Assembly: GCF_005116445.1 (NCBI RefSeq)
Contig: NZ_SWBQ01000001.1
Span: 930,001-994,000 of the forward strand
Direction: 5' to 3'
Length of the DNA stretch: 64,000 nt
Origin: Pedobacter frigoris
GTDB lineage: Bacteria; Bacteroidota; Bacteroidia; Sphingobacteriales; Sphingobacteriaceae
This document shows, in pieces, positions 257-9,510 of this stretch. A program made the translations under genes and the position numbers. The notes beneath the pieces were generated by a model. It did not search any database and was not told the DNA's origin. It was given only the letters and a program-made list of their open reading frames with translations. The stretch's first letter is position 1; each line of letters opens with the position of its first letter.

Positions 257-288
257 TTTGTTCCTGGCTGAAATATTGAGTACCTTTG
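257..288 (+). promoter_or_regulatory. Bacteroidota-type promoter for the B12 operon
   Basis: A -33-like TTTG at 257-260 and a -7-like TACCTTTG at 281-288 are separated by 20 bases. This matches the Bacteroidota consensus TTTG-N19ish-TAnnTTTG. The predicted transcript start near 295 lies just before the riboswitch aptamer. Confidence 0.7.
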
Positions 289-294
289 CGACGC

Positions 295-475
295 TTTTGG
301 TTTCTGACTAATTTGTTCAGGATTAAAAGGGAATACGGTGTAATTCCGGAACTGTCCCGCAGCTGTAAGCTCTATAACGGTGTTCTAATCGAAGCCACTT
401 TTTGTAATCCTTAGGGAGCGCAATTGGGAAGGCAGAATACCGGGAGTAAGTCAGAAGACCTGCCAAGAGTGGTAA
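295..475 (+). ncRNA. Cobalamin riboswitch
   Basis: The conserved blocks of the cobalamin aptamer appear in order: AAAAGGGAA near 325-333, a GCCACT-type segment near 394-399, and GGGAAGGC near 426-433. The B12 box (AGTAAGTCAGAAGACCTGCC, 445-464) is intact. About 100 nt of leader follows before the receptor start at 579, which is room for an expression platform. By family knowledge, adenosylcobalamin or a related corrinoid binding would lower expression of the downstream genes. Its place between a good promoter and a BtuB-like gene fits that role. Confidence 0.93.
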
Positions 476-578
476 TATTTCATAGCTTTCGGGGATTGAA
501 GCTTGGAGTGAGTGCTTGTTTATTGTATTTCATTTCCTTGATCTAACTGTTTGCTGTGGGTAATCAACTCACATCAAA

Positions 579-2639
579 ATGATAAGAAACAAAAGTGTCG
601 TAAAGGCATTAAATTGTGTTTTTTTAGTTGCTGCATCCATTATAGGATGTGGTGCTTTTGTGCCATTGGTTTCATCCGCCCAAAACAATACACCTAAACA
701 CGTAAGTACTGATTCGTTGAGTAAGGTAAATCAACTCAATGAAGTCAATATCAAGAAAATAAAAATCAGCAGGAGACAAACTTCATCTACTCCTCTACAA
801 ATATTATCAGGCGAGGAGCTTCAGAAACTGAACAGTTTATCTGTTGCAGATGCGGTTCGTTTTTTCTCCGGGGTACAATTGAAAGATTATGGTGGCATTG
901 GCGGATTGAAGACCATCAATGTTCGCAGTATGGGTACCAACCATACAGCGGTGTTTTATGACGGCGTGCAATTGGGCAATGCCCAGAACGGGCAGGTAGA
1001 CCTTGGCAAATTTTCGCTCGATAACATTGAGGAGATAGAACTGTATAACGGTCAGAAGAGCTCTATATTTCAATCGGCCAAAGGTCTTGCCTCTGGAAGT
1101 TCGCTATATCTTAAATCCAAACAACCCGACTTTGCTAATTGCAGGACACAGAAAATCCGAGCAGCCATAAAAGGGGGCTCATTTGGATTGGTTAATCCAT
1201 CTCTATTGTGGCAAAGTAAAATCAGCAATAGTGTTTATAGCTCAGTCAGTGCCGAATATAAAAATGCAAATGGCCGTTACAAGTTTCGCGCTACCAATGG
1301 CGTATACGATACTACAGCAGTGCGGACGGATGGCGATATTGAAACCATGCGTTTGGAGCTGGGGCTAAATGGGGTATTGCCTGATAGCAGTAAATGGAGG
1401 ATTAAATTGTATGGTTATAAAGATAACCAGGGACTACCAGGTGCGGTTGTAAACAATGTATTTGCCTTTTCGCAAAGGATGTGGAACAGGAACCTTTTTG
1501 CGCAGTCGGCCTATGAAAAAACTGTTGGCAAATACAGTTTACTGGCCACAGCAAAGTATGCCAACGATTACCAGCGTTATCTTAATCCTGATATTGTCAC
1601 TGTCGATGGTTTGCAGGAAAACAACTACTACCAGCAGGAAATATATGTTTCTTTGGCCAATAAACTGGAACTGACGAAATATTGGGATGTGGTATTGTCG
1701 GCCGATTACCAATGGAATAAGCTAAATGCCGATCTGTACCGCTTTTCATATCCTGTAAGGAATACAATATTAGCCGCTTTGGCTACACAACTCCATTTTG
1801 AAAGGCTGGACCTCCAGGCCAGTTTGTTGAGCACGCTTAAGTACGACAGCACAAAGCGTGGACCTGAAGATCCGGACAGAAATGAACTTACACCTACAAT
1901 CCTGGTATCCTGGCAACCCTTTAACCAAAAGGAGTTCAGGTTGCGCTCATTTTTCAAAAGCATTTTCAGGATGCCAACATTTAACGATCTTTATTACACC
2001 CCTTACGGATTCACTGTTTTGAAACCGGAGTATACCAAACAATATGATCTGGGCTTTACTTATCTTAAAGCCTATGAAAATAAGTTATTGAGCCAGTTTT
2101 CCATACAAGCCGATGCTTATTACAACACGGTGAAAGACAAAATAGTGGCCGTACCGAGCAATAACCAGGCGAGGTGGAGTATGGTAAATCTTGGGCTTGT
2201 AGAAATTAAGGGATTAGATGTAAATATACAGTCAGCATGGCAGTTGGCCTCTGATCTAAGTCTTACTGCCGCTCTCACCTACACCTATCAGCAAGCTATC
2301 GATGCAGCGCCAAGCTCGCCAAGTTATAAAGACCAGATCACTTATGTTCCGGTACACAGCGGATCATTTATGGCAGGTGCTGCCTATAAATACTTCTCAG
2401 CAAATTATAGTTTCATTTATACCGGCGAGCGTTACAACCAAAGCACCAATAACATATATAATTATGTAAGGCCATGGTACACACACGATGCGGCGGTACA
2501 CTACAATACCCGTTGGAATAAAAGAGAAATACGCATCAACGCCGAGATCAACAATCTGCTGAATCAGGATTATGCGGTAATAGAGAATTTCCCCATGCCA
2601 GGCCGCCATTATCGCTTTGGATTAACCTATAACTATTAG
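579..2639 (+). CDS. btuB: BtuB-like TonB-dependent outer-membrane receptor (probable cobalamin importer)
   Basis: This 686-residue protein should be an outer-membrane TonB-dependent receptor importing cobalamin. Residues 1-34 form a signal peptide ending near SSAQ. A plug domain (about 60-165) contains the typical NVRSMGTNHTAVFYDGVQLG and a DNIEEIELYNG segment. The remainder has the alternating beta-strand character of a 22-strand barrel and ends in an aromatic residue (FGLTYNY), as expected for Bam-dependent insertion. An N-terminal LNEVNIKK stretch could be the TonB box. There is no N-terminal carboxypeptidase-like or STN extension, so it resembles BtuB/CirA receptors rather than SusC. It is the first gene after the cobalamin riboswitch and lies 5 bp before a BtuG-like gene. 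The substrate assignment comes from this context, and the receptor family is clear from the sequence. Confidence 0.88.
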   Translation: MIRNKSVVKALNCVFLVAASIIGCGAFVPLVSSAQNNTPKHVSTDSLSKVNQLNEVNIKKIKISRRQTSSTPLQILSGEELQKLNSLSVADAVRFFSGVQLKDYGGIGGLKTINVRSMGTNHTAVFYDGVQLGNAQNGQVDLGKFSLDNIEEIELYNGQKSSIFQSAKGLASGSSLYLKSKQPDFANCRTQKIRAAIKGGSFGLVNPSLLWQSKISNSVYSSVSAEYKNANGRYKFRATNGVYDTTAVRTDGDIETMRLELGLNGVLPDSSKWRIKLYGYKDNQGLPGAVVNNVFAFSQRMWNRNLFAQSAYEKTVGKYSLLATAKYANDYQRYLNPDIVTVDGLQENNYYQQEIYVSLANKLELTKYWDVVLSADYQWNKLNADLYRFSYPVRNTILAALATQLHFERLDLQASLLSTLKYDSTKRGPEDPDRNELTPTILVSWQPFNQKEFRLRSFFKSIFRMPTFNDLYYTPYGFTVLKPEYTKQYDLGFTYLKAYENKLLSQFSIQADAYYNTVKDKIVAVPSNNQARWSMVNLGLVEIKGLDVNIQSAWQLASDLSLTAALTYTYQQAIDAAPSSPSYKDQITYVPVHSGSFMAGAAYKYFSANYSFIYTGERYNQSTNNIYNYVRPWYTHDAAVHYNTRWNKREIRINAEINNLLNQDYAVIENFPMPGRHYRFGLTYNY

Positions 2640-2644
2640 TCGCC

Positions 2645-3769
2645 ATGAAAAATTTAATTCTCCTGATTGCTTTTTCTGTACTTATGGCATCCTGCCGTAA
2701 AGACCTTAAGCCAATTCCTGAAGAGCAGCAACAAGTTATACCTCCTGATCCGCTAAGTACTGTTAAGGGATTTTACCTCGTTAATGAGGGCAATATGAAT
2801 ATGAACAAGGCCTCATTGGATTATATGGATTACACCAAAGGTATTTACCGGAGAAACATTTACAACGAGGTTAATCCTTCGATCGTAAAGGGGCTTGGGG
2901 ATGTGGCAAACGACATAGGAGTTTATGGTTCCAAGCTATATATAGTAGTCAACGTTTCTAATAAAGTAGAGGTTCTAGATGTCAGGACTGGTAAACGCAT
3001 TACTCAGATCAACATTACCAATTGCAGGTATATCACCTTTAAGGATGGAAAGGCTTATGTGAGCGCATACCTGGGCAAGGTGGGCGACCCTAAGGCACCG
3101 AATGGAGTTGTGGTGCAGATAGATACAGTTTCACTGACCGAAGTGAAAAGGGTTGACGTCGGGCGGCAACCGGAAGAAATGGCTATTGTGGGACAAAAGC
3201 TATATGTGGCCAATTCAGGAGGTTATAGTCCGGGTGCATACGAAAGAACCGTTTCTGTGGTTGACCTGAATTCATTTGCTGTAATTAAAAATATCGCTGT
3301 GGCCATAAACCTGCACAGGTTAAAAGCAGACCAGTATGGTGATTTGTATGTAACCTCGAGAGGTGATTATTATGATATTCCTTCTAAAATGTTTGTGATA
3401 GACACCAAGACGGATGAGGTGAAAAAGACTTTTGATATTGCCGTCAGCAACCTGGTGATTGACGGAGACATAGCCTATTACTATGGATCGGAATGGAGTT
3501 ACGATGAGGCTAAATTTACGGTAACTTATGGTATGCTGAACGTGAAGAATGAGACATTGATGGACAGAGGGTTTATTTCAGACGGTACCGATAAGTCCAT
3601 CACCATTCCTTACGGAATAGCTGTCCATCCCATTACCAAAGAGGTTTTTGTAACAGACGCCAAAAATTACGTGTCGCCAGGCAAGCTGTACTGCTTTAAC
3701 ACCGCCGGACAAAAGAAATGGACGGTCACAACCGGCGATATCCCGGCGCACTTTGCATTTATTTATTAG
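2645..3769 (+). CDS. YncE/DUF5074-type beta-propeller surface lipoprotein, BtuG-like (copy 1)
   Basis: This 374-residue lipoprotein has its lipobox cysteine at residue 17 (MASC), followed by charged residues (RKD) like the lipoprotein export signal that places proteins on the Bacteroidota cell surface. The body has repeated four-strand blades with motifs such as EEMAIVGQKLYVANS and VSVVDLNSF, typical of YncE-like seven-bladed propellers. In Bacteroides, BtuG is a surface propeller lipoprotein that captures B12 for BtuB. Position directly behind a riboswitch-controlled BtuB-like receptor suggests the same role here. The related copy at 4825-5931 shares the blade motifs. The propeller fold is well supported, while cobalamin binding is inferred. 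Confidence 0.8.
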   Translation: MKNLILLIAFSVLMASCRKDLKPIPEEQQQVIPPDPLSTVKGFYLVNEGNMNMNKASLDYMDYTKGIYRRNIYNEVNPSIVKGLGDVANDIGVYGSKLYIVVNVSNKVEVLDVRTGKRITQINITNCRYITFKDGKAYVSAYLGKVGDPKAPNGVVVQIDTVSLTEVKRVDVGRQPEEMAIVGQKLYVANSGGYSPGAYERTVSVVDLNSFAVIKNIAVAINLHRLKADQYGDLYVTSRGDYYDIPSKMFVIDTKTDEVKKTFDIAVSNLVIDGDIAYYYGSEWSYDEAKFTVTYGMLNVKNETLMDRGFISDGTDKSITIPYGIAVHPITKEVFVTDAKNYVSPGKLYCFNTAGQKKWTVTTGDIPAHFAFIY

Positions 3770-3784
3770 ACCCTATATATTAAA

Positions 3785-4768
3785 ATGAGCTTTAAGAAAG
3801 ACAACCCGCTTAGGAATTTAAAGTCGGCACTGATGGTAGTTGCTGTTTCTCAATTGTGTTTAACTGCCTGTAAAAAAAATGAGCCCGACGCGGAAGTTTA
3901 CGATCCAAGACCCGTTACAGCATCAAGTTCAAAGTCTATCAGTAAGATCTTTGACTATCTGCCGGCGCCCGGGCAGTTCATCAATGAAGGACTTGGTAGC
4001 CCGGAAGCCGCGCAAGCGCTCGTAGGCAAAGCTCGTGAAGGCCTTGTATCTTTGGGCGGCTATGGTGGCTACCTGGTATTTGGTTTTGACCATTCCATTG
4101 AAAATATGGAGGGTGCAGACATTGGAATTTATGGCAATCCTCTAACTGGGGTAGCTATGGAGTGGTCTGAGCCTGCAATTGTAATGGTCATGCAGGATTT
4201 GAATGGCAATGGTTTACCAGATGATGGTTCATGGTTTGAGCTTGCAGGCAGTGAATATCATAAGCCAGAGACCATAAAAAACTACAAGATCACTTATTAT
4301 AATCCTAAAAATACCACAGATGACATTAGGTGGACTGATAGTCAGGGTAAGGAGGGCTATGTTTTAAGAAATAACTTTCATCGCAAATCTTATTATCCTT
4401 TATGGATCAAAGACCAGGACCAGGTTTCTTTTACCGGAACATTGCAAAAAAACAGCCTGTCTGACGAGAAGATCATTACCAATAAACCTCTCGATTGGGG
4501 ATATGCCGATAATGGCTCGGAAGATTTCAAAGCTTTGATGGAAAGTACTGGTGCGGCTTATAATTCCTTCGATATTTCCTGGGCAGTTGACGATGAAGGG
4601 AATAAAGTAAAGCTAAAGCATATTGATTTTGTTAAAGTGTACACGGCACAAAATTCAAATGGAAATCCTTATGAGCCGGACATCACAAATCCAAGGTCAA
4701 GAGTACTGGGAGAGGTTTCTACCGAGATAGGTGGGGCCATAGATATCAAATTACATTTAAAAAAATAG
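3785..4768 (+). CDS. Surface lipoprotein of the B12 operon (copy 1)
   Basis: This 327-residue protein has a signal peptide ending in a lipobox with Cys29 (LTAC) followed by KKN. The mature part shares a long conserved core with the product of 5947-7041: an EFLPGPGQ-like segment (here DYLPAPGQF), GLVSLGGYGGYLVFGFDH, a YGNPL block, the acidic D-N-G-N-G-x-P-D turn that looks calcium-binding, and a final LGEVSTEIGG. I cannot place it in a named family with certainty. Proteins annotated only as cell surface protein sit in B12 loci of many Bacteroidota. Strict pairing with a BtuG-like gene suggests it works with the propeller at the cell surface, possibly in corrinoid capture. Confidence 0.7.
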   Translation: MSFKKDNPLRNLKSALMVVAVSQLCLTACKKNEPDAEVYDPRPVTASSSKSISKIFDYLPAPGQFINEGLGSPEAAQALVGKAREGLVSLGGYGGYLVFGFDHSIENMEGADIGIYGNPLTGVAMEWSEPAIVMVMQDLNGNGLPDDGSWFELAGSEYHKPETIKNYKITYYNPKNTTDDIRWTDSQGKEGYVLRNNFHRKSYYPLWIKDQDQVSFTGTLQKNSLSDEKIITNKPLDWGYADNGSEDFKALMESTGAAYNSFDISWAVDDEGNKVKLKHIDFVKVYTAQNSNGNPYEPDITNPRSRVLGEVSTEIGGAIDIKLHLKK

Positions 4769-4824
4769 ATAAAAACCGACAGACAGAGTTATTTTACAGA
4801 GCTTTGTCTGGCTAAAAAGCAAAC

Positions 4825-5931
4825 ATGATGAACAAACTAAACTTTAAGCCGCTCCTATTTACAGTATTATTTGCAGTCCTGGCGCTCAGTGCCTGCAAAA
4901 AAGATAGATTACCGACAATTGACCCTCAGCCAAATGCAACAACGGGTATTTATGTGTTGTGTGAAGGACCATTTGGTAGGATAAACAATAGTACGATTAC
5001 TTATTATGATATCGCTACAAAAGCTTTAGAGAAGGACTATTTTAAGAAACAGAATGGAATTGACCTTGGTACAGGTGCCAGTGCCCTAAAATCATATGGC
5101 AGTAAAATGTATTGTATAGTTACCGGTGATAATTCAACAGCTAAAGACGCTTATGTTGAAGTAATTAATATCGCGACGGGTAAATCAATTAAACGAATTC
5201 CCTTTTTTAATGATACCAAAGATTTTTCTCCAAGAAATGTTGCCTTTCATAAGGGCAAGGCATACGTTTCTGGTTATGATGGTTTTATTACGAAGATAGA
5301 TACGACAAGTTTAAATATCGAATCGAGGTTAGAAGCTGGCGGTGCGATGGAAGAAATGGCCATTGTAAACAATAAGTTATATGTTACCAATTCATTGCAT
5401 CCTTACATTAGTAATCCGATAAATTCATCCGTTTCGGTGGTTGATCTGAATACCTTTAAGAAATTGACAGAGATTGCAACCAGCTTCAATGCAACTAAGA
5501 TAGCCGCTTCTCCAAATGGGGATTTATTTGTTGTAACCAGAGGACAGTATCAGCCATCTATTGTTCCTGCTTTTGAAAAACTAAGCAGTGTTACTGACAC
5601 TAAAATCCAGACTTACACTTATGATTTAAATGCCATTACGATAGCAGGAACAAAAGCTTTCGTGATTACAGGTCACTATCCTTCAGCCTTAAAGACATTC
5701 AATATTTCAAATGCAACTGTTGGTGCTAATTTTATTACAGATGGAACTGCTGTAAGCAATATTTATGGCATTACTGTTGATCCACTTAATAGTGATGTGT
5801 ATGTAGCTGATGCAACAGATTATTCGACTGATGGCAAGTTTTTCTGTTTCGGAGCTGATGGGACTAAGAAATTTGAATTTGCTACTGGTTCAATTCCCCA
5901 AAGTGCAGTATTCAAATACAGCTATAAATAA
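4825..5931 (+). CDS. YncE/DUF5074-type beta-propeller surface lipoprotein, BtuG-like (copy 2)
   Basis: This 368-residue paralogue of the 2645-3769 product has lipobox Cys24 (LSAC) followed by KKD. Shared blade motifs include EEMAIVNNKLYVTNS and SVSVVDLNTF, with a terminal FEFATGSIPQSAVFKY resembling the other copy's WTVTTGDIPAHFAFIY. The start at 4825 gives two tandem Met codons (4825 and 4828). It follows the previous gene by 56 bp with no terminator, so co-transcription from the riboswitch promoter is likely. The duplication with divergence could give different corrinoid specificities. That is a guess from gene layout only. Confidence 0.78.
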   Translation: MMNKLNFKPLLFTVLFAVLALSACKKDRLPTIDPQPNATTGIYVLCEGPFGRINNSTITYYDIATKALEKDYFKKQNGIDLGTGASALKSYGSKMYCIVTGDNSTAKDAYVEVINIATGKSIKRIPFFNDTKDFSPRNVAFHKGKAYVSGYDGFITKIDTTSLNIESRLEAGGAMEEMAIVNNKLYVTNSLHPYISNPINSSVSVVDLNTFKKLTEIATSFNATKIAASPNGDLFVVTRGQYQPSIVPAFEKLSSVTDTKIQTYTYDLNAITIAGTKAFVITGHYPSALKTFNISNATVGANFITDGTAVSNIYGITVDPLNSDVYVADATDYSTDGKFFCFGADGTKKFEFATGSIPQSAVFKYSYK

Positions 5932-5946
5932 TTTAAAAAAACCGAT

Positions 5947-7041
5947 ATGAAAATCAGACAGTCCTTATCGATGCTCTTGCTCAGTTTTGCCATGTTTAGT
6001 GCATGTAAGAAAGATAAAGAAACCCCAGAGCCGCCCGTAATACAGATGGGCATTGAAGGGACTGTATTGAATGTAAAGGTGAATGAGACGATTGCTTTTT
6101 CAGCCCTTAATGTAAATGGTAGCGGTTATGAACAGGAGTGGAAGCTGGATGGAGAGGTAACCAGCAATACTTCCAGCTACGATTTCACCGCTATTCAATC
6201 TGGAATTTATACAGTAGAATATACAGCTACGAATAATGGCGGGGTATTTTCCCGCAGTTACACAGTAAATGTAGGTTTGCCCAACATTCCGGTAACGCCG
6301 GGCAGTAGTGCTTACGTAAAAACAGTATTTGAGTTTTTACCCGGACCAGGACAAAATACCAACCGGACACTCGGAACACTTGCTGCAGCAAAAAGCCTGG
6401 AAGGGAAGCAAGGTCTTGTATCACTTGGAGCCTGGGGAGGTTACATTGTACTTGGCTTTGACCACACGGTGATCAATGAAAGCAATAAGGACGACCTGGT
6501 GGTTTACGGTAATCCGCTCGCTAATTTCGCCGAGCCCGGAATTGTATGGGTGATGAAAGATGCAAATGGAAATGGTAAACCTGATGAAATCTGGTATGAA
6601 GTTAAAGGCAGTGAATATACCCAGCCAGGTTATATGCGTAATTATGAAGTAACATATAGCAAACCTGCTGCAGGTGGGCCTGTAGCCTGGAGAGACAACA
6701 AGGGAAACAGTGGTACAGTGAATATGGGCAGTAAGGTACAGGGCTATCCATCATGGATTTCCGGAAACGAATATACCCTGAAAGGTTCGCTGCTTCCCTC
6801 AACCAATATCAAACCTGGCGTACAGATCACCAGTATGCCTTTTGCTTTTGGCTATGCGGATAACCTGGTTGATGGCGATAAAATAGACATCGCAAATGCC
6901 GTGGATGCCGACGGTAAGCCGGTTGCCCTTGCAGGAATTGATTTTATAAAGATCCAGACAGGTATCCAGGCCAATCTGGGCATATTGGGTGAACTCTCTA
7001 CTGAACTACTGGGGGTGCTCGATCTTGGCCTGATCAAATAA
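5947..7041 (+). CDS. Surface lipoprotein of the B12 operon with added PKD-like domain (copy 2)
   Basis: This 364-residue lipoprotein has Cys20 in FSAC followed by KKDK. It has the same core as the 3785-4768 product (FEFLPGPGQ, GLVSLGAWGGYIVLGFDH, VYGNPLANFAEPG, a D-A-N-G-N-G-K-P-D acidic turn, LGELSTELLG). Between the lipid anchor and the core it carries an extra PKD/Ig-like domain of about 80 residues (roughly 30-110, ending in TYTVNVG). The PKD-like insert may act as a stalk. It lies 15 bp after the second BtuG-like gene. Function is inferred from the operon only. Confidence 0.72.
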   Translation: MKIRQSLSMLLLSFAMFSACKKDKETPEPPVIQMGIEGTVLNVKVNETIAFSALNVNGSGYEQEWKLDGEVTSNTSSYDFTAIQSGIYTVEYTATNNGGVFSRSYTVNVGLPNIPVTPGSSAYVKTVFEFLPGPGQNTNRTLGTLAAAKSLEGKQGLVSLGAWGGYIVLGFDHTVINESNKDDLVVYGNPLANFAEPGIVWVMKDANGNGKPDEIWYEVKGSEYTQPGYMRNYEVTYSKPAAGGPVAWRDNKGNSGTVNMGSKVQGYPSWISGNEYTLKGSLLPSTNIKPGVQITSMPFAFGYADNLVDGDKIDIANAVDADGKPVALAGIDFIKIQTGIQANLGILGELSTELLGVLDLGLIK

Positions 7042-7124
7042 AGCGAGTCGTTATATAAGAAGAATGCGAGCTGTTTTATTATCCGTAGAAATAACATAAC
7101 TTTGGTCTATAATTTTTTAAAAAT

Positions 7125-7706
7125 ATGTCTGACTCAAAATTCAACCCGCGTACCGCAATACTTTTATTGATCATTGTATTGGTTAGCATTATACGCGTTG
7201 CAGCAGCGCTTTCTGACAATTTCAAGGAAATAGCCAACTTCTCTGGAGTAGGCGCTATTGCGCTGTTTGGGGGTGCTTACTTTAGTAATAACATCAAAGC
7301 TTTCGGATTCCCATTACTTATTTTGTTATTGAGTGATATTTTTATCTCTCAGATATCTGGATATGGTTTCTTCTATGGCGGATGGTACTGGATTTATATA
7401 GCCTTTATCCTGATGGTATTTGTTGGTAAAGTAATGCTGACGAAAATAAATGTACAGAATTTGGTATTGTCAACTATTGTAATGGTATTGATTCATTGGA
7501 TCGTATCCGACATTAGTGCGATGTATATACCGGGGTTATATGAACCAACCCTGGCAGGTTACTGGGCATGCCTCGTAGCTGCTATTCCTTACGAACTTAA
7601 TTTTGTTTACGGATCTCTGATTTACGGAGTACTGATGTTTGGTTCGTTTGAATTGCTTAAAGCAAAATATCCATATCTGAGTTTAAGCAGAAATACTGTA
7701 GCTTAA
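7125..7706 (+). CDS. Small integral membrane protein, DUF6580-like; candidate inner-membrane cobalamin transporter
   Basis: This 193-residue, very hydrophobic protein has about five to six membrane segments separated by short loops (for example SIIRVAAAL, NFSGVGAIALFGGAYF, GWYWIYIAFILMVF). The pattern FSGVGAIALFGGAYF resembles the DUF6580 family of putative transport proteins, which look like ECF-transporter S components. No btuC, btuD or btuF is present in this operon, so this protein is the obvious local candidate for moving cobalamin across the inner membrane. It lies 83 bp behind the previous gene, and a TAACTTTG -7-like box at 7097-7104 could give some riboswitch-independent expression. 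Family recognition is moderate and transport function is inferred. Confidence 0.65.
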   Translation: MSDSKFNPRTAILLLIIVLVSIIRVAAALSDNFKEIANFSGVGAIALFGGAYFSNNIKAFGFPLLILLLSDIFISQISGYGFFYGGWYWIYIAFILMVFVGKVMLTKINVQNLVLSTIVMVLIHWIVSDISAMYIPGLYEPTLAGYWACLVAAIPYELNFVYGSLIYGVLMFGSFELLKAKYPYLSLSRNTVA

Positions 7707-7716
7707 GATTTTAAAT

Positions 7717-7748
7717 ATGCAGGAGTTACATCAGCGTAATTCCTGCAT
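7717..7748. terminator. Hairpin between convergent B12 operon and repeat-protein operon
   Basis: A 12-bp stem (ATGCAGGAGTTA pairing with TAATTCCTGCAT, one G-U) with an 8-nt loop spans the junction of the two convergent transcripts and covers the stop codon of the minus-strand gene. No clean T-run follows on either strand, so termination efficiency is uncertain. Confidence 0.5.
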
Positions 7749-9510
7749 TCCATCCCATCCATCCCTTTATTCCTGAACTGATTTTATGAGCTCTTTGGGG
7801 GGCAACTCTTTGCTGATACCCTTTTTCGGCTGAGCCTTCAGTGCCATTATAGGTCGAATAGACCGGTCCGGCAAATAAGGTAATTCCTTTAAAAACCTGG
7901 TATTGCAGGTTAGCCTGAAACCTGTTCAAGAAATTGGTGTGATCCCAATTGCCCAGATACAGGTATTGTCCTGTGATTTCAGCAGCGACTGATAATTTAT
8001 TGTTAAAAATAAAGTCATGTCCGAAACCCAGACCGGCGGTAAGTATTTTAGCAGAATCACCATGGTTTTTTCCGGCAAGGATGATGTTGTAGAGCTTAGC
8101 GTTCCCTGTTTTTAATGCAATATTTGCATTGATGGTTTCGTCGGTTGAAATGCTGATCTTATGATAACCATGATGGACATAGTTAATTAAGCCAATACTA
8201 TATCCGGTATTGTAATCAGAAATATTGACCAATCCGATCTGTAGTCCTTTCATTTGCTTCGCATAATTGAATACACCAGTGATCTGAACTCCGGATAGTT
8301 CCTTCAATGCTATATTTCCCACACCGGAAATCTGTACGCCATCAATCTCTTTAGCGGTATAGTTAATCAATCCGGCAATCTGCGTACCCTTGGTCTTTTC
8401 GGGCGATATATTAGCCACACCTGCTATTTGTGTACCTCTGAAACCCTTGAAAGTAATATTCGTCACCCCCGCAATCTGAACACCTTCAACATCTTCCTTT
8501 ACGTGGTTTACTACACCAGCTACCTGGACGCCCTTAACACCTGTTCTCACATCATTTAAAAGTCCGGCTACCTGCACACCTTCCACCGAGCCACCTACAC
8601 CATTAAAACCTCCTGCGATCTGCAGTTTGATGACATTTCCTTTGGTGATGTTAAAAAGTCCGGCAATTTCCACACCATTAATTCCGGCGGTGTAGCCTCC
8701 GATTATATTCAAAGAACCTTTATTGATGACCTGTGAGCTCATGATGCCATGCGAACTTAAGCCAGGGGTGAAGGAGGCCTGGAAAGGACTATTCGCTAAA
8801 AATCCAGAGATGTTCAGGCTCTGGAATTTTTGTTTTGACGATAAGAAGAACCGGCTGATACCTGATTTTTCTATGGTATTAAAAAAGAAGCTTCCCTTTT
8901 CGTCGTTCTTATCCCGATAACCCTCTGGCTTAATCTTGATGTCAGATAAAAAAACAAGGGAAGTATCACGGTACATTTCTTTACTGGCCGTTAGTATGAT
9001 CATTGTATGATTTCCCTTGATGCGGATTTTGAAATACCCTTTGTCGTCGGTAAGGTCGCCATCTAAAGTCCGTTTTTCGTATACACTGGCCTTTCCGACC
9101 GCTTGTCCTGTCCTCTTATCGACTACATACCCGCTGATCTGATATGATTTTTCATTACTGCTGATGTTTTCAGGTTCTATGGTCAGGTGATTGGCAGCAT
9201 ACCTTAGAATGACATGCTCACCCATCTCTTTATAGGCGACCTTTCCGTCGAAAATGCGGTCCAGGACATCTCTTACCGGCATATTGGTGGCACTTACATT
9301 GACAATACTATCCTGGTTAAAAAGTATACCGCTGTAGGAGAAAAAGAAGCCGCCTGTTTTACTTAGTCTGTCCAATACCTCAGATACGGGTTTTGCTTTT
9401 ACATCCAGCTTTACCAGTTTATCCAGATTACGCATGTAGTCATCTGTGTTATTTTGTGCCTTGCACCATGATGATATGCCAATCAGCAACAATATGATCT
9501 TTAATCTCAT
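7726..9510 (-). CDS. STN domain + carboxypeptidase-like domain + GVQIAG-repeat surface protein
   Basis: This 594-residue protein has a signal peptide (1-18, ending CKAQ). An STN-like secretin/TonB short domain (about 30-105) follows, with KPVSEVLDRLSKTGGFFFSY and MPVRDVLDRIF. Next is a CarboxypepD_reg-like beta-sandwich (about 125-205; YQISGYVVDKRTGQAVGKASV). Roughly residues 275-440 hold ten tandem 16-residue units of the form GVQIAGVxN, like the LA_2272-type surface repeats, and a barrel-like C-terminal region closes the protein. The start codon overlaps the stop of the FecR-like gene by 4 bases (ATGA), so the two are translationally coupled. In classical systems the STN domain belongs to a TonB-dependent receptor that signals to FecR. 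Here it is fused to a repeat protein with no TonB receptor part. It is a paralogue of the 11771-12844 product. Confidence 0.78.
   Translation of the reverse strand: MRLKIILLLIGISSWCKAQNNTDDYMRNLDKLVKLDVKAKPVSEVLDRLSKTGGFFFSYSGILFNQDSIVNVSATNMPVRDVLDRIFDGKVAYKEMGEHVILRYAANHLTIEPENISSNEKSYQISGYVVDKRTGQAVGKASVYEKRTLDGDLTDDKGYFKIRIKGNHTMIILTASKEMYRDTSLVFLSDIKIKPEGYRDKNDEKGSFFFNTIEKSGISRFFLSSKQKFQSLNISGFLANSPFQASFTPGLSSHGIMSSQVINKGSLNIIGGYTAGINGVEIAGLFNITKGNVIKLQIAGGFNGVGGSVEGVQVAGLLNDVRTGVKGVQVAGVVNHVKEDVEGVQIAGVTNITFKGFRGTQIAGVANISPEKTKGTQIAGLINYTAKEIDGVQISGVGNIALKELSGVQITGVFNYAKQMKGLQIGLVNISDYNTGYSIGLINYVHHGYHKISISTDETINANIALKTGNAKLYNIILAGKNHGDSAKILTAGLGFGHDFIFNNKLSVAAEITGQYLYLGNWDHTNFLNRFQANLQYQVFKGITLFAGPVYSTYNGTEGSAEKGYQQRVAPQRAHKISSGIKGWMGWNAGITLM

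Follow-up and report, generated by a model that had tools for sequence, protein, structure and literature searches.

How corrinoids captured at the outer membrane are carried over the inner membrane is the question raised by an operon of Pedobacter frigoris, which lies at positions 281-7706 (+ strand) of a stretch of 64,000 nucleotides (the window; contig NZ_SWBQ01000001.1, positions 930,001 to 994,000) and comprises a cobalamin riboswitch followed by six genes, all open and co-directional (Table 1). The last gene, at which the operon is taken to end because the next long open reading frame (7726-9510) is on the opposite strand, encodes a membrane protein in which a Pfam scan found only DUF6580 (PF20221) above chance, and whose nearest named relative is from Pedobacter sp. 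MC2016-24 (76% identity). It is very probable that this DUF6580 protein is a solitary cobamide importer, BtuM-like but separate from BtuM, that works without BtuF, BtuCD or an energy-coupling factor (ECF) module.

The transporters usually responsible for this step are missing from the P. frigoris genome (4.69 Mb in 20 contigs, completeness rating 100%). A search of the whole genome for the BtuC-type permease FecCD (PF01032) gave no match, with 13 of 14 control genomes positive, and the single Peripla_BP_2 protein is without a signal peptide by eye. The initial annotation had noted the lack of BtuFCD at this locus and had named a btuFCD set elsewhere in the genome as evidence that would speak against a DUF6580 carrier; the first statement is borne out genome-wide, and such a set is ruled out by the absence of FecCD. 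The EcfT/CbiQ family (PF02361), the one component of the ECF module that the search covered, also had no match in this genome. The same genome contains five matches to B12-binding domains and three cobalamin riboswitches, one of which heads this operon and another of which precedes metE.

A survey of 247 Bacteroidota genomes placed DUF6580 above its cut-off in 98 and FecCD (E < 1e-40) in 165. DUF6580 alone was found in 81 genomes, FecCD alone in 148, both in 17 and neither in 1 (Fisher p 8e-47, a value that overstates independence because the genomes share ancestry), and the corresponding counts by majority within 121 genera were 55, 57, 9 and 0. The FecCD cut was set after the values had been seen, and inclusion of the 14 weaker matches (2.5e-5 to 1.2e-14), all of which are in DUF6580 genomes, changes the counts to 31 genomes with both and 67 with DUF6580 only; one genome in which DUF6580 fell below its cut-off (G062) was scored negative. 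DUF6580 and strong FecCD are nearly mutually exclusive in the sampled Bacteroidota, and DUF6580 most likely stands in for BtuFCD in ~40% of these genomes. It would perform the same periplasm-to-cytoplasm step as BtuCDF in a BtuB system; BtuCDF itself is an ATP-binding cassette (ABC) transporter and has a binding protein in the periplasm.

The 17 genomes that contain both proteins could be read as a contradiction of this replacement, a reading that was rejected because HemS adjoins FecCD in 12 of the 18 FecCD loci analyzed, which were drawn from 16 of these genomes (all but G195) and do not include the additional copies that several of these 16 contain. These 12 loci were classed as haem-type, the other 6 having no type call, and at two haem-type loci the presence of HmuY, HemS, a binding protein and an ATPase was confirmed by Pfam. 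In a FecCD tree, the copies from genomes with both proteins fall mostly, not all, in one clade. A cobalamin riboswitch was found at 0 of the 18 loci; among 19 control loci from FecCD-only genomes, 6 had this riboswitch and 2 had HemS. The riboswitch was therefore rejected as a constant mark of FecCD in FecCD-only genomes, and its absence alone is weak evidence because only these 6 of 19 loci have one. The two haem-type control loci are L140, from genome G002, and L155, from genome G096. G002, which belongs to the same family as P. frigoris and is without DUF6580, has haem-type FecCD only and lacks B12-binding proteins as well as cobalamin riboswitches; therefore the absence of both importers fits its gene content.

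Structural comparisons also point to a transporter. An AlphaFold model made with 70 sequences (mean predicted local distance difference test score 93.4, predicted template modelling score 0.89) has six predicted transmembrane helices and a predicted S-component fold. The first two matches of this model in VIA-align were BtuM structures (8c7p, Z 14.0, root-mean-square deviation 3.4 over 167 residues; 8ovv, Z 13.8), and ranks 1-19 were all S-components or CbiM (Z at least 9.1, with CbiM at 9.1) and unrelated entries began at Z 6.8, a scale on which helical bundles may reach Z ~13 by arrangement alone. When the DUF6580 profile was compared with all PDB chains, no match was found up to E 10, BtuM included, and no relatives were recovered in a viral-contig scan or a plasmid search. 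Residues conserved in the family include Arg24, Phe39, Leu47-Phe48-Gly49, Ala51-Tyr52, Pro63, Ser70-Asp71, Tyr91, Pro155 and Phe172-Gly173.

BtuM is described as a solitary B12 transporter of Proteobacteria with an S-component fold (Rempel 2018, PMC6072759), and it is reported to give B12-dependent growth in E. coli, a host without an ECF module, for which the assay strain is Delta-FEC (PMC6072759). Solitary transport by this fold therefore has a precedent. DUF6580 resembles BtuM in its predicted six-helix S-component fold, its size of ~20 kDa and its occurrence in hosts without BtuCDF and usually without an ECF module, but it has no detected sequence match to BtuM, comes from another phylum, and has as its gene neighbours either BtuG/BtuH or cobU/T/S/C and metH. 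In addition, BtuM is reported to use an invariant cysteine, Cys80 in loop 3, as an axial ligand (PMC6072759), whereas in DUF6580 position 149 is Cys in 46 of 70 sequences and Ser in 16, and would lie in loop 5 and face the periplasm, judging from the helix order of the model. DUF6580 is not filed as BtuM because the invariant cysteine of BtuM is missing. A His near residue 35 is found in 29 of 63 DUF6580 sequences but not in the P. frigoris protein.

Regulation and gene neighbours provide further support for a cobalamin carrier. In 38 of the 98 DUF6580 genomes (14 of 45 plus 24 of 53; chance ~0.1% each), a cobalamin riboswitch (RF00174) was found on the same strand at most 8 kb upstream of DUF6580, and in 7 of the 38 it is less than 180 bp away. 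Among the best 80 named loci out of 472 confirmed DUF6580 loci, a set that is biased toward near relatives and in which loci without an nhmmer riboswitch match were also scanned with Rfam, 44 have a cobalamin riboswitch upstream in the DNA covered for the locus, 10 of them within 240 bp. Four of these loci, all from marine Flavobacteria, have a SAM-II riboswitch directly 5' of DUF6580 (Table 1), with metH as the next gene in three and the end of the contig in the fourth, so that B12 import and methionine synthase are probably under control by S-adenosylmethionine (SAM) in these bacteria. The recurrent neighbours in the best 80 loci were TonB receptor (39 loci), PP-loop ATPase (DUF71; 25), propeller (17), BtuF-like protein (16), CobT (16), CobS (14), CobU (13), CobC (13), BtuH-type protein (11) and MetH (6); the names were taken from Pfam/NCBIfam matches in two loci, L045 and L091, or assigned by resemblance to proteins of the window, and no EcfT-like cluster was among those named. 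In many loci cobU, DUF71, cobT, cobS and cobC are downstream of DUF6580, and a role of DUF71 in B12 salvage has itself been predicted because its genes cluster with those of BtuCDF (PMC3541065). As a separate observation, a Fibrobacterota metagenome-assembled genome has AdoCbl-II riboswitches just 3' of its DUF6580 gene (L105, 702-783 and 3965-4044).

The position of DUF6580 ahead of cobU/cobT/cobS/cobC in many loci, along with the rank of the cobalt S-component CbiM among the fold matches, would also suit a protein of S-component fold that imports a B12 precursor (5,6-dimethylbenzimidazole, alpha-ribazole or cobalt) and not a cobamide. However, the near-exclusion with FecCD permeases is not required of an importer of precursors, a SAM-II riboswitch precedes DUF6580 together with metH in marine Flavobacteria, the P. 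frigoris gene follows only genes for corrinoid capture at the outer membrane, and the top fold match is BtuM, all of which make import of a precursor improbable.

In addition to the shared ancestry of the genomes and the behaviour of helical bundles in VIA-align, several observations weigh against assigning cobamide import to DUF6580 alone. A common fold does not give the substrate; Foldseek matches were weak (best E 3.7e-2, to a folate S-component, with BtuM at row 15, probability 0.97); none of the cysteines is invariant among the 70 DUF6580 sequences, 9 of which have no Cys at all; and in 60 of 98 genomes the 8 kb preceding the gene contain no riboswitch. Genome G096 is without DUF6580 and its FecCD is of haem-type only (L155), yet it contains both B12-binding proteins and a cobalamin riboswitch, so another B12 importer may exist there. 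The genome with neither DUF6580 nor strong FecCD (G136) also has B12 enzymes and a cobalamin riboswitch. Finally, EcfT was present in 6 and absent in 74 of 80 genomes, a set made up of G136 and 79 of the 81 DUF6580-only genomes (G100 and G104 were left out) in which all 80 have B12-binding proteins.

Two other roles for DUF6580 bear on these observations. The 6 genomes with EcfT would suit a DUF6580 protein that is a cobamide S-component and borrows an ECF or ABC energising module encoded elsewhere, which is the normal working mode of S-components; for example, CbrT alone is reported to give no growth in an E. coli assay (PMC5997447). DUF6580 would share with CbrT of ECF-CbrT its S-component class and B12 as substrate, but CbrT is described as requiring an ECF module (PMC5997447), and EcfT is missing from the P. 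frigoris genome and the 74 genomes above, as it is from the named neighbour clusters, making a borrowed module highly improbable. Alternatively, DUF6580 could be an accessory receptor or sensor, with another, unrecognised protein carrying B12 over the inner membrane, as receptors with an S-component fold are also reported (PMC11109136) and G096 is at least one genome that gets by with neither DUF6580 nor an evident BtuC. We regard this as quite improbable, since exclusion with FecCD points at the transport step itself and DUF6580 is the first gene after the cobalamin riboswitch in several lineages.

Fold, gene neighbours, control by a riboswitch and the near-exclusion of FecCD lend strong support to the proposal of the initial annotation that the DUF6580-like protein could be a carrier of cobalamin. 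From these computed features, together with the absence of the usual transporters and the presence of proteins with B12-binding domains, we infer that cobamides and perhaps cobinamide are the substrate, that DUF6580 transports them, how this transport is energised and that it needs no partner. The operon would then be a riboswitch-controlled cobamide salvage system, in which a BtuB1-type receptor and BtuG/BtuH lipoproteins would capture corrinoids and pass them over the outer membrane into the periplasm, where DUF6580 would take the corrinoid and, as BtuM does, carry it alone over the inner membrane. Inward direction could be provided by adenosylation, enzyme binding or cytosolic BtuF-like proteins that trap the product. 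BtuF-like PF01497 proteins are found in 54 of 80 genomes without strong FecCD, and the N-termini inspected show no signal peptide (examples are at C1:457700 in P. frigoris (L007:1438-2232) and in L159-L188), so it is possible that they act as cytosolic B12 acceptors. It is a rather doubtful extension of this idea that a solitary DUF6580 protein and a cytoplasmic, signal-less acceptor of BtuF fold constitute a phylum-wide, ATP-free B12 import route in which the acceptor makes uptake one-way.

Table 1. Features of the P. frigoris operon (positions in the window) and SAM-II riboswitches at other DUF6580 loci (positions in the locus named).
Feature	Position	Strand	Evidence or context
Cobalamin riboswitch heading the operon	281..481	+	RF00174, cmscan 104.6 bits, E 3.9e-25, full model 1-189
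BtuB1-type TonB-dependent corrinoid receptor	579..2639	+	Plug and barrel; PDB 8blw_A BtuB1, E 5.6e-135
BtuG-type beta-propeller surface lipoprotein, copy 1	2645..3769	+	DUF5074, 50.9 bits; 8blw_B BtuG1, E 3.8e-46
BtuH-domain surface lipoprotein, copy 1, without PKD	3785..4768	+	8blw_B residues 391-642, E 2.1e-55; 7biz BtuH2, E 1.4e-48
BtuG-type beta-propeller surface lipoprotein, copy 2	4825..5931	+	DUF5074, 41.6 bits; 8blw_B, E 1e-48
PKD and BtuH-domain surface lipoprotein, copy 2	5947..7041	+	PKD_3, 26.8 bits; 7biz BtuH2, E 1e-50
DUF6580 membrane protein, proposed to import cobamides alone over the inner membrane	7125..7706	+	PF20221, E 1.4e-48; predicted S-component fold
SAM-II riboswitches	L091 6820-6878; L093 6751-6810; L112 4610-4669; L115 2269-2327		Directly upstream of DUF6580

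The outer-membrane half of the operon is of an already known kind. The cobalamin riboswitch, the BtuB-like receptor and the two pairs of BtuG-like propeller and surface lipoprotein ahead of DUF6580, all predicted by the initial annotation (579-7706, a range that starts just 3' of the riboswitch), were confirmed by family and structure-sequence matches, the best solved relatives of receptor and propellers being BtuB1 (8blw_A) and BtuG1 (8blw_B) of locus 1 of Bacteroides thetaiotaomicron. BtuG is reported to bind B12 with femtomolar affinity (PMC6143338), and both propellers have a lipobox-like Cys close to the N-terminus by eye. BtuG1 is described as a single chain in which propeller and BtuH domain are joined (PMC10404256), whereas the P. 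frigoris operon, whose receptor, propeller and BtuH domain have these proteins as closest solved relatives, encodes propeller and BtuH as separate genes in two ancient pairs.

Both BtuH lipoproteins match the BtuH domains of 8blw_B and of BtuH2 (7biz), the first without any family in a Pfam scan. The PKD-like domain that had been noted in the second protein was recovered as PKD_3 at residues 29-96, barely above the Pfam cut-off (26.3 bits), and the alignment of this protein with 7biz spans both the immunoglobulin-like and the BtuH domains of BtuH2. PKD domains ahead of BtuH are already on record (PMC8941943), and BtuH2 is likewise described with a C-terminal BtuH domain behind PKD/immunoglobulin-like domains, but it has three of these compared to one or none in the operon's proteins. 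The corrin contacts reported for BtuH2 are His476, Tyr510, Trp511 and Trp577 (PMC8941943). Copy 1 keeps the His476 equivalent, has Ile for Tyr510 and Trp511, and has Trp577 beyond the local alignment (one of three covered contacts kept), and copy 2 keeps none of the four. Corrinoid binding by the two BtuH proteins is therefore not assured, although other residues could serve as corrin contacts.

The initial annotation was correct that two pairs are present, but their duplication is not recent. Copies 1 and 2 are 33% identical for the propellers and 38% for the BtuH proteins, and each copy groups with orthologues from other Pedobacter, ruling out a fresh tandem duplication. In trees of 23 propeller and 17 BtuH sequences, propeller 1 groups with orthologues from L039, L040 and L041 (support 0.96), propeller 2 with a separate Pedobacter set (support 0.99), and the BtuH copies split in the same way with lower support. 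The pairs are old paralogues that resemble a split form of the BtuG1 propeller-BtuH fusion, and service of different corrinoids by the two pairs is a possible, candidate role. Operon content also differs among Pedobacter, with three propellers in L039 and one pair in L042.

Two further observations concern regulation in P. frigoris. The motifs TACCTTTG (280-287, just 5' of the riboswitch) and TAACTTTG (~7098-7105, 5' of DUF6580) resemble the Bacteroidota -7 promoter box, and the second suggests that the DUF6580 gene may have its own promoter. Elsewhere in the genome, a second cobalamin riboswitch (contig C14:82353-82545) heads a lone DUF5074 lipoprotein gene (L004:2711-3811), whose product is 35-37% identical to the lipoprotein encoded directly 5' of DUF6580 in other Pedobacter (L038-L041); the gene seems to have moved out of the operon in P. 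frigoris.

No paper naming DUF6580 or PF20221 was found in open-licence full texts, and none presenting a B12 carrier of this family was found, judged by titles and the openings of abstracts, but an earlier prediction may exist. NCBI product names may read 'DUF6580 family putative transport protein'. Many B12-dependent Gram-negative bacteria with BtuB are reported to lack BtuCDF (PMC6072759), and in a large part of the Bacteroidota, including soil Pedobacter, Mucilaginibacter, Chitinophagaceae and marine Flavobacteria, the inner-membrane step of B12 uptake has no named protein in the searchable literature. DUF6580 provides one small candidate gene for this step. If its proposed function is true, it would constitute a second family of solitary B12 carriers with an S-component fold, next to BtuM, and genome-based predictions of B12 uptake that rely on BtuFCD alone would change.

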